Assembly (NCBI GenBank): GCA_016872835.1
Contig: VGYX01000001.1
Span: 62,001 to 126,000 of the forward strand
Reading direction: 5' to 3'
From: Planctomycetota bacterium
Lineage (GTDB): Bacteria > Planctomycetota > Phycisphaerae > Phycisphaerales > SM1A02
Length of the DNA stretch: 64,000 nucleotides
The position numbers were made by a program, and so were the translations under genes. The notes beneath the pieces were generated by a model. The model made no database searches, was not told the origin of the DNA, and saw only the letters and a program-made list of their open reading frames with translations. Positions 543 to 26,217 of the stretch are shown one piece after another; the first letter of the stretch is position 1; every line of letters starts with the position of its first letter.

Positions 543-2384
543 ATGGCCTCGTGTGACCCTGTCGCCCTGCTGGAGCAGGCCTTCCGTGCCGGTATCGCCG
601 CGGCGACCGGCACCGACGCGGCCTCAGTCGATCCGCAGGTCAAGGCCAGCGCCGATCCCAAGCACGGCGACTTCCAGTGCAACGCTGCGCTGGCGCTCGC
701 GAAGGCCGCCAAGGCCAACCCAAGTGAACTGGCGCGGCGCATTCTGGCGGCCACGCCGCTGTCGGGACTCGCGGAGCGAACGGACATCGCGGGCCCGGGC
801 TTCATCAATGTCTGGCTGTCGCAGGGCGCGCTTGGCCACCTGCTTGCCGGCATGGACGCACCCGAACTTGGCATCGATCCCGCCCCGCTGCCGCATGCGG
901 TGGTGATCGACCTGTGTGGCGTGAACGTTGCCAAGCAGATGCACGTGGGGCACCTGCGTGCCACGGTGATCGGCGATGTGATGGCGCGGCTGCACGAGCG
1001 ACTGGGTCGCAAGGTCTGGCGCGAGAACCATCTGGGCGACTGGGGTCTCCCCATCGCGATGACGCTGGCGAGCCTGCGCAGGCAGAAGCGTGACTTCGCA
1101 CGACTGACGCTGGACGATCTGAACACCGCCTACCGCGCCGCCCAGGCCGAGGGGAAGAGTGACGAGGCGGGACAGGCCGCGGCGATCGCGTGCGGCGCGG
1201 GACCGCATCGACTGGCGGAGTTCGACGCACAGAATGGGCCCGCTCTCGCTGCCGAGCGCGACGCGAAGGCCACCCTGCTGAAGCTGCAATCGGGCGATCC
1301 CGCGACCGTGGCCGACTGGCAGCGGCTCATCGATGTGACCATGGCCGAGGTCTTCGCGACCACCCGCACCTTGGGCGTGAAGCTGGGCCCCGAGCACTCG
1401 CGCGGCGAGAGCTTCTACCGCGAGCGCCTGGGCCCGGTGATCGAGGCGTTCGTCTCGAAGGGACTCGCGCGCGAGGATCAGGGCGCGATCGTCGTGCATT
1501 ACGCCGACCGCGATCGACCCATGCTCATCCGAAAGGCGGATGGCGGTTTCCTGTACGCCACCACCGACCTAGCGGCGGTGCGCTTTCGCGTGCAGGAACT
1601 CGACGGCGGCCGCGTGATCTACGTGGTCGACGCTCGTCAGCGCGACCACTTCAAGGACGTGTTCGACGGAGTCCGGCTGATCGGATGGGACGCGCTGCGT
1701 GACGGAACGCGAGCCGAACTCTCGCACATGCAGTTCGGCACCGTGCTTGGCAAGGACAAGCGTCCCCTGAGGACGCGCAGCGGCGAGAACTTCACGCTGA
1801 AGGCGCTGCTGGACGAGGCGATCGAGCGCGGCATACAGCAGGTCTTCCGGCGCGCCGCCGAGACCGATGCACCCACCCATGGCCTGCGCGAGACGGACCT
1901 GCGCGCGATCGGCGCAGCCGTGGGCATCGGCGCCGTGAAGTACGCCGATCTCTCCGGCGACCCGGTGAAGGACTACGTGTTCGATCTCGATCGCATGATC
2001 GCCTTCGAGGGCGATACCGGGCCGTACATCCAGTACGCGCACGCGCGCATCGCCAGCCTGATCGCACGATCGGGCGAGAGCGCGGCGGCGATCGCGGCGG
2101 CCACCTACGCCCCCATCGAACCCGCGGAGCGCCATCTTGCGCTTTGCCTGCTCCGTTTCCCGGCCGTCGTGCTGGCCGCCGCCGAGCATCAGGCGCCGCA
2201 GCGAGTCTGTGCCGCCCTGCACGAACTGGCCAACGCCTATGCCAGCTTCTATCAGGCGTGTCCCGTGCTGAAGGCGGCCGATTCCGGCACGCGTCTCTCC
2301 CGCTTGCGGCTGTCCTCGCTGACGCAGCGGGTGCTGGCCGGTGGCCTCGATCTGCTCGGCATCGCGGCTCCGGATCGAATGTGA
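543..2384 (+). CDS. argS: arginyl-tRNA synthetase
   Basis: Class I synthetase that charges tRNA-Arg with arginine in the cytoplasm. The protein is 613 residues, slightly longer than the E. coli enzyme. The HIGH signature appears as HVGH at residues 134-137 within a segment reading NVAKQMHVGHLRATVIGD, and the KMSKS-equivalent loop is the degenerate KRPLRTRSG form usual in ArgRS. An N-terminal Add1-like domain precedes the Rossmann fold, and the C-terminal third is the helical anticodon-binding DALR domain (YADLSGDPVKDYVFDLDRM leads into it). The ATG has no Shine-Dalgarno site but a TAGACT hexamer ends 6 bases upstream. This is one of four synthetase genes in the first 26 kb. Confidence 0.97.
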   Translation: MASCDPVALLEQAFRAGIAAATGTDAASVDPQVKASADPKHGDFQCNAALALAKAAKANPSELARRILAATPLSGLAERTDIAGPGFINVWLSQGALGHLLAGMDAPELGIDPAPLPHAVVIDLCGVNVAKQMHVGHLRATVIGDVMARLHERLGRKVWRENHLGDWGLPIAMTLASLRRQKRDFARLTLDDLNTAYRAAQAEGKSDEAGQAAAIACGAGPHRLAEFDAQNGPALAAERDAKATLLKLQSGDPATVADWQRLIDVTMAEVFATTRTLGVKLGPEHSRGESFYRERLGPVIEAFVSKGLAREDQGAIVVHYADRDRPMLIRKADGGFLYATTDLAAVRFRVQELDGGRVIYVVDARQRDHFKDVFDGVRLIGWDALRDGTRAELSHMQFGTVLGKDKRPLRTRSGENFTLKALLDEAIERGIQQVFRRAAETDAPTHGLRETDLRAIGAAVGIGAVKYADLSGDPVKDYVFDLDRMIAFEGDTGPYIQYAHARIASLIARSGESAAAIAAATYAPIEPAERHLALCLLRFPAVVLAAAEHQAPQRVCAALHELANAYASFYQACPVLKAADSGTRLSRLRLSSLTQRVLAGGLDLLGIAAPDRM

Positions 2385-11810: not shown

Positions 11811-12491
11811 TCAGCGCTCGTCGCGCCGCCGCCTCCCACGAGGTGTGCCGCCCACGAACGCCGCCAGCACGGCCAGCGCTCCTGGGGTGGGCACAAGCTT
11901 GAGATCCAACGTCACCGCATCAAGAATCGCGTGCGGCGCGGCGCTGGAGAAGTCGATCTGCCATCGCGTGCAGTTCCAGACAAGCGGATCGATCGACCAG
12001 GTGAAGGCTGTGGTGACCGCGTTGCCACCCATTCCATCAGGAACCGAGTTGCGCAACAGCGTGGTCGTCGGAGCAAGGCGCTTGGAATTGCCCGCGTTGT
12101 CGAAGAGCGTCAGCGCGACGGTGGAGTTCACGATCCCCGTGCCCGCACTCGCGAGGTTCATCACCACGTCGGTGGGATTGCGAGGGGCCGAAGTCACGCC
12201 GCCCATGATCATGACCGCGAGCGGGCCGGTGGGGTTGTAGATGCCCGTGGGAAACGGCGCACTGGTGAGCACCGCACCCGGACCGAAGTTGAAGAGAGAC
12301 GCCAAGTTCGAACTGCCCGCCATGTCGGCTGCATTCGCGCCCGCATAGGCCGAGGTGAAGGTTTCCCACCCCATGTACATGGTGTTGGCGGAGCCGCGCC
12401 AAGACGGCACAAGCGGATTCACGACCCCCGCCGAGGCGGCGGCAGCCAAGACACCGGTCCCAATTCCGACATGGATGCAGCGATACGACAT
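11811..12491 (-). CDS. secreted protein with PEP-CTERM-like anchor
   Basis: A 226-residue exported protein. After MSYRCIH comes a signal-like stretch VGIGTGVLAAAASAG. The middle is a beta-rich domain with no recognised motif, and the C-terminus is VPTPGALAVLAAFVGG followed by an Arg-rich tail. That order (P-rich motif, hydrophobic helix, Arg cluster) matches PEP-CTERM sorting signals, which are cut by an exosortase and often accompany exopolysaccharide loci. The start at 12491 is set by GAGGGAAGAG just upstream. A second ATG 33 bases earlier is less likely. No exosortase is in the window. Confidence 0.8.
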   Translation of the reverse strand: MSYRCIHVGIGTGVLAAAASAGVVNPLVPSWRGSANTMYMGWETFTSAYAGANAADMAGSSNLASLFNFGPGAVLTSAPFPTGIYNPTGPLAVMIMGGVTSAPRNPTDVVMNLASAGTGIVNSTVALTLFDNAGNSKRLAPTTTLLRNSVPDGMGGNAVTTAFTWSIDPLVWNCTRWQIDFSSAAPHAILDAVTLDLKLVPTPGALAVLAAFVGGTPRGRRRRDER

Positions 12492-22699: not shown

Positions 22700-23311
22700 C
22701 TACCGGGTCTTCGGAAGATTTCCGAGAGCCTGCAGGACTTGGTCGCGCAACGACGCCGGATCGCCGTCGTTGCGAATGACATGATGTGCCGCGGCGCGCT
22801 TGCGGTCAAGTGACCACTGGGCGGCCTCACGGCGGTCCAACTCCTCGGCGGACCAGCCGCGGTCCGCCATGACGCGCGCCCGGCGCGCCGTTTCGGGGGC
22901 GTCGACGAACCAGATTTGAGAGCATTCGCCAGCCAGACCCGCCTCAAGCAGGAGCGGCGCATCGATCACGAACGCTCGGGTTCCGGGCGGTGCCGCCGCG
23001 AAGAGTGCCCGGCGAGCGGCCTCGACCTTCGGGTGGATCAACGCCTCCAACCGCTTCCGCTCGGCCGGATCCCGAAACACGACCGCCGCCACGGCGGCAC
23101 GGTCGATCTGGCCGGCGTCGTTGACCACGCCCGGGCCCCACCAGGTCTGGAGTTGCGCTCGAATCTCGGGCAGTTCGCAAAGCTTCCGAACCTGCGCGTC
23201 GGAATCCGCCACGGTACAGCCGAGTGACAGCAGAGCCGACGCCACACTGCTCTTGCCACTTCCGACCCCTCCGACCAGCCCGATCATCGGAATTTTGGAG
23301 GCGTTCCCCAT
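22700..23311 (-). CDS. coaE: dephospho-CoA kinase
   Basis: P-loop kinase of 203 residues performing the last step of coenzyme A synthesis, phosphorylating the ribose 3'-OH of dephospho-CoA. The nucleotide-binding loop is GLVGGVGSGKSS, followed by D-S-D-A-Q substrate residues, PEVE-like HPKVEAARRALF and VIDAPLLLEAGL. The length matches the family. A TACAGT hexamer ends 8 bases before the ATG. Confidence 0.95.
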   Translation of the reverse strand: MGNASKIPMIGLVGGVGSGKSSVASALLSLGCTVADSDAQVRKLCELPEIRAQLQTWWGPGVVNDAGQIDRAAVAAVVFRDPAERKRLEALIHPKVEAARRALFAAAPPGTRAFVIDAPLLLEAGLAGECSQIWFVDAPETARRARVMADRGWSAEELDRREAAQWSLDRKRAAAHHVIRNDGDPASLRDQVLQALGNLPKTR

Positions 23312-23319
23312 GAGCGGGT

Positions 23320-23325
23320 ACTGTA
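23320..23325 (-). promoter_or_regulatory. coaE -10 element (TACAGT)
   Basis: TACAGT on the minus strand, after CCG, ends 8 bases before the coaE ATG. It fits the short-leader pattern. Confidence 0.4.
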
Positions 23326-23367
23326 CGGGTTGGCCTCAGAAAAGGTGCCTTTTGGCCATGGAATGAC

Positions 23368-23399
23368 CGTGCGAGCCTGGTCGCACGATCCCATTTTTT
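23368..23399 (+). terminator. possible terminator hairpin
   Basis: CGTGCGA and TCGCACG form a 7-bp stem with loop GCCTGG, followed after 6 bases by six T. No plus-strand gene lies directly upstream, so it may simply insulate the leader that follows. Confidence 0.3.
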
Positions 23400-23940
23400 C
23401 TCCCGCTCGCCGCACCGAACCGGCATTTGGATCCATCGAAGCAAACCTTTTGCGGAAAAGAATTTGCCTCATCTCGGATCGGGGCTAGGTTGAGCGCAAT
23501 TCGAGATTCAGAAAAGGCTGCTGTCACTTACGACAGCGCGAATCTCGAAGGTCGGATCTGAGGAAGATCCGAGGTCTGGGAGGGAACCGAGGGAATCCAT
23601 ACATCCCAACGTTCCGAGGGTCTGAGTTCTTGGCTCCGTGTTGTGCGTTCCCAACGCCCTGCACTGGCCAGGCTGAGCGCTGTCATTCGCGCTCAGGGCA
23701 CTGTCACTTTCCTACCTCAACAGTCACTCGAACGGTTCGTAAGAGGTCACAACACTTGGTGCCTCGCAACAGCCGCTCACACGACACTTTCCTGCCTGCC
23801 TGACATTCTCGCTTCCTGAGGGATCTAGACAAATCGTTTCAAGACGCCAGAGCCCGCGTGGCCCTGTCGCCTTCCGACACCCGAGTTCTGAGTTTTCACT
23901 TTCCTTGCACCCAACCATCCTGTTCAGAGAGGGAAAAGAC

Positions 23941-24501
23941 ATGAAGTTCAGCACCACTACGGTTCTCGCCGCCTCGCTCTCCGGAGCTGCCAGCGCTGGC
24001 GTCCTCACCATGACCGCCTCCAGCACCACCGGCTCCGACGGCTGGGCGAGCCTGCTCGGCTACACGATGGTTATGACCATCGACTGCAGCACGATCGATG
24101 ATGCGGGCTCCTCGAGCTCGTTCGTGCTCAACAGCTGGTCTTTCAAGGCCATGGACAGCTCCAGCGTCATCAAGTTCGAGGCGAAGGGCTCGGCCAAGAC
24201 GTTCTCAGTTGCACCGAACTTTGGCATGGGGGTGGTCACCTTCGAACTGAACTCCAGCAACACCGTGACCAACAACATGGTCCCGGCTGCCGAAGCGTTC
24301 ACCTTCGTCTACGCCTTCAGCGCCAACGAGAGCTTGAGGGCTGCCATCGAGGCGTCGGCTGGCACCGCCGCCGGCATTCTGCAGCTTGGCACCGGCATTG
24401 TCCCCACCGGTACGCTGGCGGGTCGCTACGCCGTGCCCGCTCCGGGCGCCGCCGCGCTGCTCGTCCTCGCAGGCGTGATGAGCCGCCGCCGCAAGGCCTG
24501 A
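23941..24501 (+). CDS. secreted protein with PEP-CTERM-like anchor
   Basis: A 186-residue exported protein. The signal peptide is MKFSTTTVLAASLSGAASAG, the body is Ser/Thr/Asn-rich beta structure, and the C-terminus reads VPAPGAAALLVLAGVMSRRRKA, a PEP-CTERM-like sorting signal in which VPAPG replaces VPEPS. Such proteins are transferred to the outer surface by exosortases. GAGAGGG lies 8 bases before the ATG. The gene has a leader of about 440 bases with several hairpins, so post-transcriptional control is likely. A strong terminator follows. Confidence 0.82.
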   Translation: MKFSTTTVLAASLSGAASAGVLTMTASSTTGSDGWASLLGYTMVMTIDCSTIDDAGSSSSFVLNSWSFKAMDSSSVIKFEAKGSAKTFSVAPNFGMGVVTFELNSSNTVTNNMVPAAEAFTFVYAFSANESLRAAIEASAGTAAGILQLGTGIVPTGTLAGRYAVPAPGAAALLVLAGVMSRRRKA

Positions 24502-24556
24502 TTTCACGAACCTCCAAGGAAGCGCCTTGGGCGGGAACCCCGGGTGTCCAAACATG

Positions 24557-24597
24557 AGGGCCCCGGATGTCGACGGACATCCGGGCCCCTTTCATTT
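24557..24597 (+). terminator. terminator between the PEP-CTERM-like gene and cysS
   Basis: A 15-bp stem with 14 matches (24557-24571 with 24576-24590), loop GACG region of 4 bases, then TTCATTT. It ends the plus-strand gene and, since cysS converges on it, may serve both. Confidence 0.7.
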
Positions 24598-24660
24598 GGA
24601 AGTGTTCATCCAGTCGCTCGGGCATGCATCCGTCGATTCGGGCTCAGCGAGGCGCTGGGC

Positions 24661-26217
24661 TCAACGGACCACGCGCGACCAGATGGTGCCAGTCGGGCCG
24701 TCCTTCACCTGCACACCAAGCGCAGCCAGTTCATCGCGGACCTGATCGCTGGCGGCCCAGTCCTTCGCCGCGCGGGCGGCGGTGCGGCGCGCCAACAGCG
24801 CGTTCACCTGCGCTTCCAGATCGTCTGCGGCCTTCGAGGCCACCGGACGGTTGCGGTCAAGCACGTCGAGCACCGAGTCCATGCGGCGCAGCGCCTTCAA
24901 CTCGCGAGCCGGGCAGGCGTTCAAATGATCCTGGCCGAGCGCCTCGTTCAGTGCTGCGATCGCGCGCGCCACGTTCAGGTCGTCGCACAGCGCTTCGGTG
25001 AACGAAGCAAGGGCCGACTCGAGCGGGCCCGGCGTGGCGGCTGCGTGGCGTACGGCCAGCGCGACGTTTCCTGAGGTCCGCAGCGCCGCGATCGAAGCTT
25101 CCAGCGCCTCGGCGTGACGGCTCCAGCGATCGATCATGCGCTGGCAATCGGTCAAGCCCTGCAGCGTGAAGTTCGAGTTGGTGCGATAGTGCGTGCGCAC
25201 GAGTTCCAGTCGCAGCGCCGCCGGCGTGACGCCCTTGGCGAACAGGTCGCGCGCGGTGAAGAAATTGCCCTTGCTCTTGGACATCTTCTGACCCTCGACG
25301 ACCAGATGGCGCGTGTGGAACCACAGGCGCGCGAAGGTGGGCTTGCCGAAGCAGCAGCGGCTCTGGGCGATCTCGCACTCATGGTGCGGGAAGATGTTGT
25401 CCTCGCCGCCTGAGTGCAGGTCGATCTGCTCGCCAAGCAGGCCCGCGGCCATCGCGCTGCACTCGAGATGCCAGCCCGGGTAGCCCGCGCCCCATGGCGA
25501 ATCCCACTTCATCAGGTGCTTCGCGTCAGGCTTCCACAGCATGAAGTCGGCGGGGTGACGCTTGGAGGCCTGGTTTTCCGCGCTGACGCGGCCGCCCTCG
25601 CCCTCGCGGAGCGCGTCGAGCGTGTTGCCACTGAGCTTGCCGTAGTCGGGAAAGCTGCGGACATCGAAGTACACGACGCCATCCCGCGCCACGTAGGCGT
25701 GACCGCGGTCCACCAGTCCCTGCACCATCGCGATCATCTGCGGCACCCATCGCGTGGGACGCGGCATCAGCGCCGGATCGCGCTCGGCCTCGATGGCCAC
25801 CTTCAGACCAAGCAGGCGCGCGTCCTCGAGAAACCGTGTGGCGTAGAAGTCGGCGATCGCGAGCGGATCATTTGGATCGATCGTGGCGCCGGCCGGGAGC
25901 GTGCCGGACTTCTTCGCCTCGGCCAGGCGGCGGCCCGCCACAGCCATCTTGTCCTCGCCGCCGCCATCAGCCTGTGCATCGTCGGTCATGTGACCCACGT
26001 CGGTGATGTTCATCACATGACGCACCGCAACGCCTGTCAGCTCGATCGCGCGCCGAAGGATGTCCGCGTTCAGGAAGCTGCGGAAGTTGCCGATGTGCGC
26101 GTCGTCGTAGACCGTCGGACCGCAGCTATAGAAGGTGACGGGACCGTTCGGGCCAGCCAAGGGGTGCAACCCAACGTCGTGGCCCGAGAGGGTGTCATGG
26201 ATACGGACCATCGGCAT
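24661..26217 (-). CDS. cysS: cysteinyl-tRNA synthetase
   Basis: Class I synthetase of 518 residues. The zinc-binding Cys is C32 in [10 protein letters not shown], the HIGH motif is HIGN (41-44), and KMSKS occurs in [26 protein letters not shown] and HHECEIAQS add the remaining zinc ligands. The protein is somewhat longer than the E. coli enzyme because of an insertion after the HIGH domain ([19 protein letters not shown]). TATGCT ends 8 bases before the ATG. Confidence 0.97.

Follow-up and report, generated by a model that had tools for sequence, protein, structure and literature searches.

Small RNAs with a motif complementary to the Shine-Dalgarno (SD) sequence have been described in Alphaproteobacteria. 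They include the CcsR RNAs (PMC10253847) and the alpha-r14 family (NfeR1; PMC10746234), in which, according to the parts of the report considered here, an ultraconserved CCUCCUCCC anti-SD motif is repeated in three hairpins. For PEP-CTERM genes, the sections of Haft et al. (2006; PMC1569441) used here state that large noncoding regions lie ahead of most of them, that their PrsK/PrsR/sigma-54 element is confined to Proteobacteria, and that the regulators outside Proteobacteria were still to be found. Among the titles and abstract openings considered here on PEP-CTERM and exosortase, none describes control of these genes by such a small RNA.

In this study, we analyzed a stretch of 64,000 nucleotides of Planctomycetota DNA (the window), with emphasis on one long spacer ahead of a PEP-CTERM-type gene. 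The spacer appears to encode a structured leader, and the SD sequence at its end is complementary to a conserved tract in a putative small RNA encoded elsewhere in the same genome.

A structured leader ahead of a PEP-CTERM-type gene

The gene downstream of the spacer faces cysS. Its product has no Pfam match, and its sole NCBIfam match is both insignificant and unrelated. As no curated PEP-CTERM model matches the protein either, we use the label "PEP-CTERM-type", which rests on the signal peptide and the VPAPG-hydrophobic-RRRKA tail, together with the only exosortase hit of the genome (PF09721, 162.3 bits). A strong hairpin between this gene and the convergent cysS (24547-24600; z -3.98, 0/200 shuffles) is probably a terminator. 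The window contains a second PEP-CTERM-type gene, with ORF start at 12491 on the minus strand, which is preceded by GAGGGAA within TTGAGGGAAGAG-ATG and by a noncoding stretch of about 200 nt upstream. At 23366-23400 on the plus strand, within the coaE upstream region, a GTGCGAGCCTGGTCGCAC hairpin is followed by ATTTTTTC; no plus-strand gene precedes it.

Table 1. Features of the spacer, its neighbors and the putative small-RNA gene (positions refer to the window, except for the small-RNA gene)
Feature	Position	Strand	Remarks
Spacer under study	23312-23940		between coaE (-) and the 186-aa secreted-protein gene (+)
coaE	22700..23311	-	divergent neighbor; guide for locating orthologous spacers
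Promoter-like TTGCCT-N16-TAGGTT	23464..23491	+	G-rich spacer; TTGCCT 23464-23469, TAGGTT 23486-23491; kept in 4 orthologous spacers
P1	23500..23549	+	23500-23509 with 23540-23549, 10 perfect pairs; encloses bulge and inner stem P1b
GAAAAGG at P1 bulge	23511..23517	+	invariant in 4/4 leaders; complementary to small-RNA tract
P1b (inner stem)	23520-23525 with 23532-23537	+	GCTGTC with GACAGC
P2 hairpin	23552..23572	+	23552-23559 with 23565-23572; in 3/4 leaders, absent in G004
GGGAGGGAA	23578..23586	+	9-nt complement of small-RNA tract; conserved block
Third hairpin	23673..23696	+	23673-23680 with 23689-23696; by eye, none in relatives
CACTTTCCT, copy 1/3	23705..23713	+
CACTTTCCT, copy 2/3	23785..23793	+
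CACTTTCCT, copy 3/3	23897..23905	+	adjoining CU-rich sequence can pair with SD
Extended SD GAGGGAAAAG	23929..23938	+	10-nt exact complement of small-RNA tract; before ATG 23941
PEP-CTERM-type gene	23941..24501	+	secreted protein, 186 aa
Small-RNA gene, window genome	L154 (G000:C10), about 1393-1548	+	invariant GCCCTTTTCCCTCCCTCCGC tract, then covarying terminator

A preliminary description of this DNA had presented the spacer as a hairpin-rich leader with a promoter candidate, a nested perfect repeat, two further hairpins, a 9-mer in three copies and an SD site. All of these are present (Table 1), the repeat (placed at 23502-23547) being slightly longer than had been proposed. The promoter candidate is where it was located and recurs in the orthologous spacers, although a scan of 23312-24700 for the TTGACA/TATAAT consensus reports no promoter. 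"Hairpin-rich" applies to the first 75 nt or so, since only the segment of P1 (z -4.2) and the combination of P1 and P2 (z -3.2) are more stable than chance, with 0/200 shuffles as stable in either case. The whole 452-nt leader has the stability expected by chance (z -0.11; 44/100 shuffles at least as stable), and so has the segment of the third hairpin (z -0.64; 45/200 shuffles). Against Rfam 15, the leader spacer has no match even at E values up to 10, and at gathering thresholds the whole window yields two tRNAs and nothing else. CACTTTCC also precedes the PEP-CTERM-type genes of the related genomes G001 and G004.

A blastn search with the 630-bp spacer against 40 relatives returned only the spacer itself. 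The gene coaE was found in 12 of the 16 genus genomes, and comparison of these 12 spacers places the element upstream of coaE in four, namely G000 (the window genome), G001, G004 and G012. The four spacers share the order TTTGC...TA, GAAAAGG at a nearly fixed distance, NNNNTGT and (C/G)GGAGG, and the counterpart of GGGAGGGAA is CGGAGGG in G001 and G012 and CGGAGGC in G004. In G001 and G004, the leader is followed by tandem PEP-CTERM-type genes. When the trimmed stretches are folded alone, the window shares its arrangement of P1, bulge and P1b with G001 and G012. G004 comes close, but pairs the first G of GAAAAGG and lacks P2. Changes on both sides are found in at least one sequence for 20 of 29 pairs, a count that comes from a hand-fitted alignment biased in favor of the structure. 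As a stricter null, we shuffled the flanks of a fixed GAAAAGG (400 shuffles per leader). The architecture was then reached by 17 shuffles for the window, 4 for G012, 12 for G001 and 27 for G004, and an energy as low was reached by 0, 1, 82 and 64, respectively; G004 folds differently in this setting. With longer stretches, G012 stands out (z -4.09), and G001 (z +0.62) and G004 (z -0.91) do not. Support for the structure is therefore good in two of the sequences and moderate in the others.

Full-length copies of the element were found with our model R1 in G000, G001, G004 and G012 only among the 16 genus genomes, in no additional genome of a 151-genome family sample, and, in a second collection of 45 coaE contigs, at the corresponding loci only; other scanned loci have no copy by pattern or model. 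Sixteen weak R1 hits were inspected as alignments and rejected as copies of the element, as their score is largely promoter-driven (the 43-45 nt hits L108, L115, L116 and L117 are outside this set). A similar G-rich spacer with TAnnnT occurs at other loci of the family, and a promoter-like motif TTGnnT...CGGAnC(C)GGGGnTAnnnT lies upstream of various family genes (L051, L052, L054-L057, L110, L114).

These results support the presence of a leader whose 5' end is structured and conserved. The preliminary observation is partly confirmed and its interpretation partly supported: three relatives have this architecture behind the equivalent promoter-like sequence, although the outcome of the structure test is moderate in two of the four leaders.

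A putative small-RNA gene upstream of efp

The weak R1 hits L112 (G000), L057 (G001) and L109 (G005) are promoter-like sequences of an apparent small-RNA gene just upstream of efp, which ends GCCCTTTTCCCTCCCTCCGCCCCCGG...CCGGGGGTATTT. The gene has a promoter-like sequence upstream, a covarying terminator stem and no conserved ORF (33 loci for the ORF). An alignment of 14 genus members shows an invariant C/U-rich tract, with covariation in a hairpin upstream of it and in the upper part of the terminator, and with both-side changes in 11 of 30 consensus pairs. The putative efp-upstream RNA thus combines an ultraconserved anti-SD tract with variable, covarying stems, as is characteristic of anti-SD small RNAs.

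The tract is widespread. In its 14-base form, CCCTTTTCCCTCCC, it occurs without mismatch in 15 of the 16 genus genomes; the exception, G004 (73% complete), has leader and SD, and no tract match. With at most one mismatch allowed, 75 of the 151 family genomes, representing 15 of 45 genera, carry the 17-base form CCCTTTTCCCTCCCTCC. A sample of the order has the tract in 46 of 201 genomes, five of them outside the family with one mismatch each. An efp match lies downstream on the same strand at 27 of 33 tract loci, 24 of them within 300 nt, and is absent at the remaining six. Single-sequence folding predicts a paired tract in the window genome's own small RNA and a mostly open tract in the small RNAs of 11 of 15 genus members. 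At the small-RNA loci scanned, Rfam gives no gathering-level match.

One reading frame of the tract would translate to PFSLPPPP, and attenuation of efp via a polyproline leader peptide was considered and rejected, because neither start nor frame is conserved over the 33 loci. Genomes of genus g29 (e.g. G092, G115 and G132) have the standard tract and, in addition, a second copy that differs from it by one change (CCCTTTTCCATCCCTCC). Elsewhere, the minus strand of L106 (G010:C114) has a promoter-like stretch, GTTCCCTCCGACTGTTCCC and then a hairpin that is GC-rich and has a run of T; this may be another small RNA.

Complementarity of the tract to leaders and SD sequences

The complement of the tract, GCGGAGGGAGGGAAAAGGGC, includes GAAAAGG, GGGAGGGAA and the extended SD GAGGGAAAAG, whose match runs through AAAAG, past the usual SD. 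In G001 and G012, the GAAAAGG match extends to GGAAAAGG, and their CGGAGGG is also within the tract complement. On both strands of the window there are three tract matches of at least 9 nt, two of them in the leader and the SD being the longest (10 nt); the reversed and the complemented tract, used as controls, have one such match each. The leaders of PEP genes contain seven matches of at least 9 nt, six of which are SDs of related genes, compared with an average of 0.17 and a maximum of 2 in 500 shuffles, and with a single match for the reversed tract. Matches of 7 and 8 nt are as frequent with the reversed tract (17 vs 18 and 13 vs 12), because GGGAAAAGGG is mirror-symmetric, so that the bulge match draws no support from the reversed control. 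Predicted duplexes with the tract have energies of -17.6 kcal/mol (SD), -26.8 kcal/mol (GGGAGGG) and -11.0 kcal/mol (bulge), the last of these being weak. In the fold of the full leader, GGGAGGG is paired (0.08 unpaired) and the bulge is open (0.86). By duplex energy among 12792 sequence windows, the SD site ranks 709 and the bulge 3918, a ranking that is uninformative in the G-rich window genome.

In the 16 genus genomes, AGGGAAAAG-N1-5-ATG occurs at 12 sites and its reversed control at none. Nine of the 12 precede PEP-CTERM-type genes, including three at loci other than the coaE-linked leader (G000:C16, G001:C4 and G003), and the remaining three precede short ORFs (18, 50 and 70 aa). The window genome has five GAGGGAAA-N1-7-ATG sites, two before PEP-CTERM-type genes and three before frames that are internal or spurious by eye. 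Among the fetched loci, a tract match of at least 7 nt precedes the start of 15 of 35 PEP-CTERM-type genes, with starts picked by simple rules, vs 5 of 419 other ORFs. Without the five genes that were fetched via the SD pattern, the proportion is 11/30; six of these genes are relatives of the window protein, and the others amount to 5/24. The match is shorter than 7 nt in 20 of the 35, hence the SD is characteristic of some, but not all, PEP-CTERM-type genes. Other PEP-CTERM-type genes (L008, L020, L026, L113, L114 and others) have the SD GGAGTTTCC or GGAGTTCC, in some cases directly after a C/U tract (e.g. CCCTTTCCCTCACT and CTTCCCTTTTC) of the same sense as the small-RNA tract.

In the 151 family genomes, AGGGAAAAG-N1-5-ATG has 86 sites and the reversed control 48 (hand count). 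Reading the frame behind each of the 86 identified 17 complete PEP-CTERM-type genes in 11 genomes of 6 genera (two in G109 are identical copies) and six others cut short by a contig end, which were classified by eye. A further four sites are the antisense of the small RNA, and the 59 others are near the control number. All 17 complete and all six cut genes are in genomes with the small RNA, and in genomes without it none of 45 sites precedes a PEP-CTERM-type gene. Fisher tests of this co-occurrence give 7e-9 at the level of sites, 1.3e-5 at that of genomes (with the cut genes) and 6e-4 at that of genera, with kinship corrected at the genus level at most. A few PEP-CTERM genes were seen in G023 and G046, which lack the small RNA, and two PEP genes of G046, a genome with no tract hit, have 8-nt matches before their starts.

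A model for the locus, its alternatives and related systems

The conserved leader architecture, the conservation of the small RNA, the complementarity between the two, the association of the SD with PEP-CTERM-type genes and its co-occurrence with the small RNA are all seen in the sequences themselves. Together, they suggest a model in which the region 23312-23940 would give rise to a 5' UTR of about 440 nt, starting with a structured domain (P1, GAAAAGG bulge, P1b and P2) that is kept in four species. Elsewhere, upstream of efp, a gene would specify a small RNA of about 150 nt with the invariant C/U-rich anti-SD-like tract just before its terminator. We infer that this RNA is transcribed as a discrete molecule and pairs in the cell with the extended SD GAGGGAAAAG, where 10 exact pairs would block ribosome binding. 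The same block on other PEP-CTERM genes with the shared SD would create a post-transcriptional regulon. The GAAAAGG bulge and GGGAGGGAA, both of which match the tract, may play a role as extra docking or decoy sites.

That the gene has a structured 5' UTR and is repressed by an anti-SD small RNA as part of a PEP-CTERM regulon is a proposal to which, judging from sequence, we would give equal weight for and against. More speculative is its full form, which we advance tentatively: an efp-linked, ultraconserved anti-SD small RNA would silence PEP-CTERM genes via their shared extended SD throughout a Planctomycetota family, and the structured 5' domain, with complementary segments in bulge and linker, would be a multi-site receiver or sponge that sets the threshold of control. 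If the proposed regulon is real, it would provide a concrete, testable answer to how PEP-CTERM genes are controlled in one Planctomycetota family, based on a small RNA that is invariant over many genera and for which a set of targets and their exact sites are predicted.

The 5' domain need not be part of such a pathway. It could be an independent cis element, either a protein-binding site or a 5' stabilising hairpin, with coincidental tract matches in GAAAAGG and GGGAGGGAA even if the SD is a target of the small RNA. The strength of P1 and P1b in the window and G012, the weak bulge-tract duplex, the predicted pairing of GGGAGGG and the equally frequent reversed-tract matches at 7-8 nt all fit this explanation. 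However, the conserved unpaired pieces, GAAAAGG and CGGAGGG (one change each in the window and G004), both complement the tract, and we regard an independent element as possible, but rather doubtful. Another objection is that the complementarity reflects nothing but a shared Shine-Dalgarno relation, with the extended SD acting as a translation enhancer that PEP-CTERM genes typically have, and with the CU tract belonging to a leader or attenuator of efp. An anti-SD-like tract does resemble the complement of any good SD, and efp does follow the tract on the same strand at 27 of the 33 loci, mostly at short distance (24 within 300 nt). This explanation seems unlikely to us, since the SD-tract match continues through AAAAG beyond the usual SD, the real-looking genes with the extended SD are PEP-CTERM-type, all 17 of them are in tract-bearing genomes, six of the 33 loci have no efp match and no leader peptide is conserved across the tract.

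The preliminary description had suggested that the leader could be a riboswitch, a thermosensor or a small RNA. The last idea survives in another sense, as both the leader and the SD resemble targets of a conserved small RNA whose gene lies elsewhere. RNA thermometers of the fourU type have a U-rich stretch able to pair with the SD, and the leader has one, too. In a thermosensor, CU-rich sequence near CACTTTCCT would mask AGGGAAAAG in cis and melt on warming. Because this sequence can mask the SD in predicted folds (SD bases of the window pair with upstream UUUU/UCC with a probability of about 0.4 each, and the SD is predicted to be paired in several other PEP genes), we retain the thermosensor as a minor possibility, and a very unlikely one. 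In contrast to fourU-type thermometers, the leader has no conserved hairpin at the SD; its SD pairing is weak and variable, with partners placed differently in each gene (mean unpaired 0.11 to 0.66 in 7 genes), and the conserved 5' domain would be left unexplained. A ligand-binding riboswitch at the 5' end of the leader would account for a conserved multi-stem domain distant from the start codon, yet we give it hardly any credence. There is no Rfam match and no metabolic gene, and instead of a conserved aptamer core across diverse lineages we find an element in four species of one genus, with few conserved unpaired bases, limited to GAAAAGG and the GGAGG-like pieces. Nor did we find a predicted switch to a fold that masks the SD or forms a terminator. 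To our knowledge, none of the riboswitch consensus motifs fits the leader.

How does the proposed small RNA compare with described ones? SorX (Rfam RF02784), which like the efp-upstream RNA is a small RNA with a 3' terminator, is the best Rfam match, obtained for one member of the small-RNA family (26.3 bits, E 0.0093). The score is below the gathering threshold of 46.6 and gives no evidence of kinship. The nearest working analogues are the alphaproteobacterial anti-SD small RNAs, in which we do not claim membership. As described in the parts of the reports considered here (PMC10746234, PMC10253847), alpha-r14 and CcsR RNAs share with the efp-upstream RNA an ultraconserved C/U-rich anti-SD motif surrounded by variable stems, and many ribosome-binding sites as proposed targets. 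The efp-upstream RNA differs in that it has one longer CCCUUUUCCCUCCCUCCG before the terminator, stems from another phylum, is usually linked to efp and has PEP-CTERM-type genes as its predicted targets. With regard to these targets, the PrsK/PrsR/sigma-54 element, as presented in the sections of PMC1569441 used here, is similar to the window locus in that a shared regulatory element precedes many PEP-CTERM genes with long noncoding upstream regions. However, the proteobacterial element consists of a DNA promoter and an activator site, whereas the element at the window locus would act on the mRNA.
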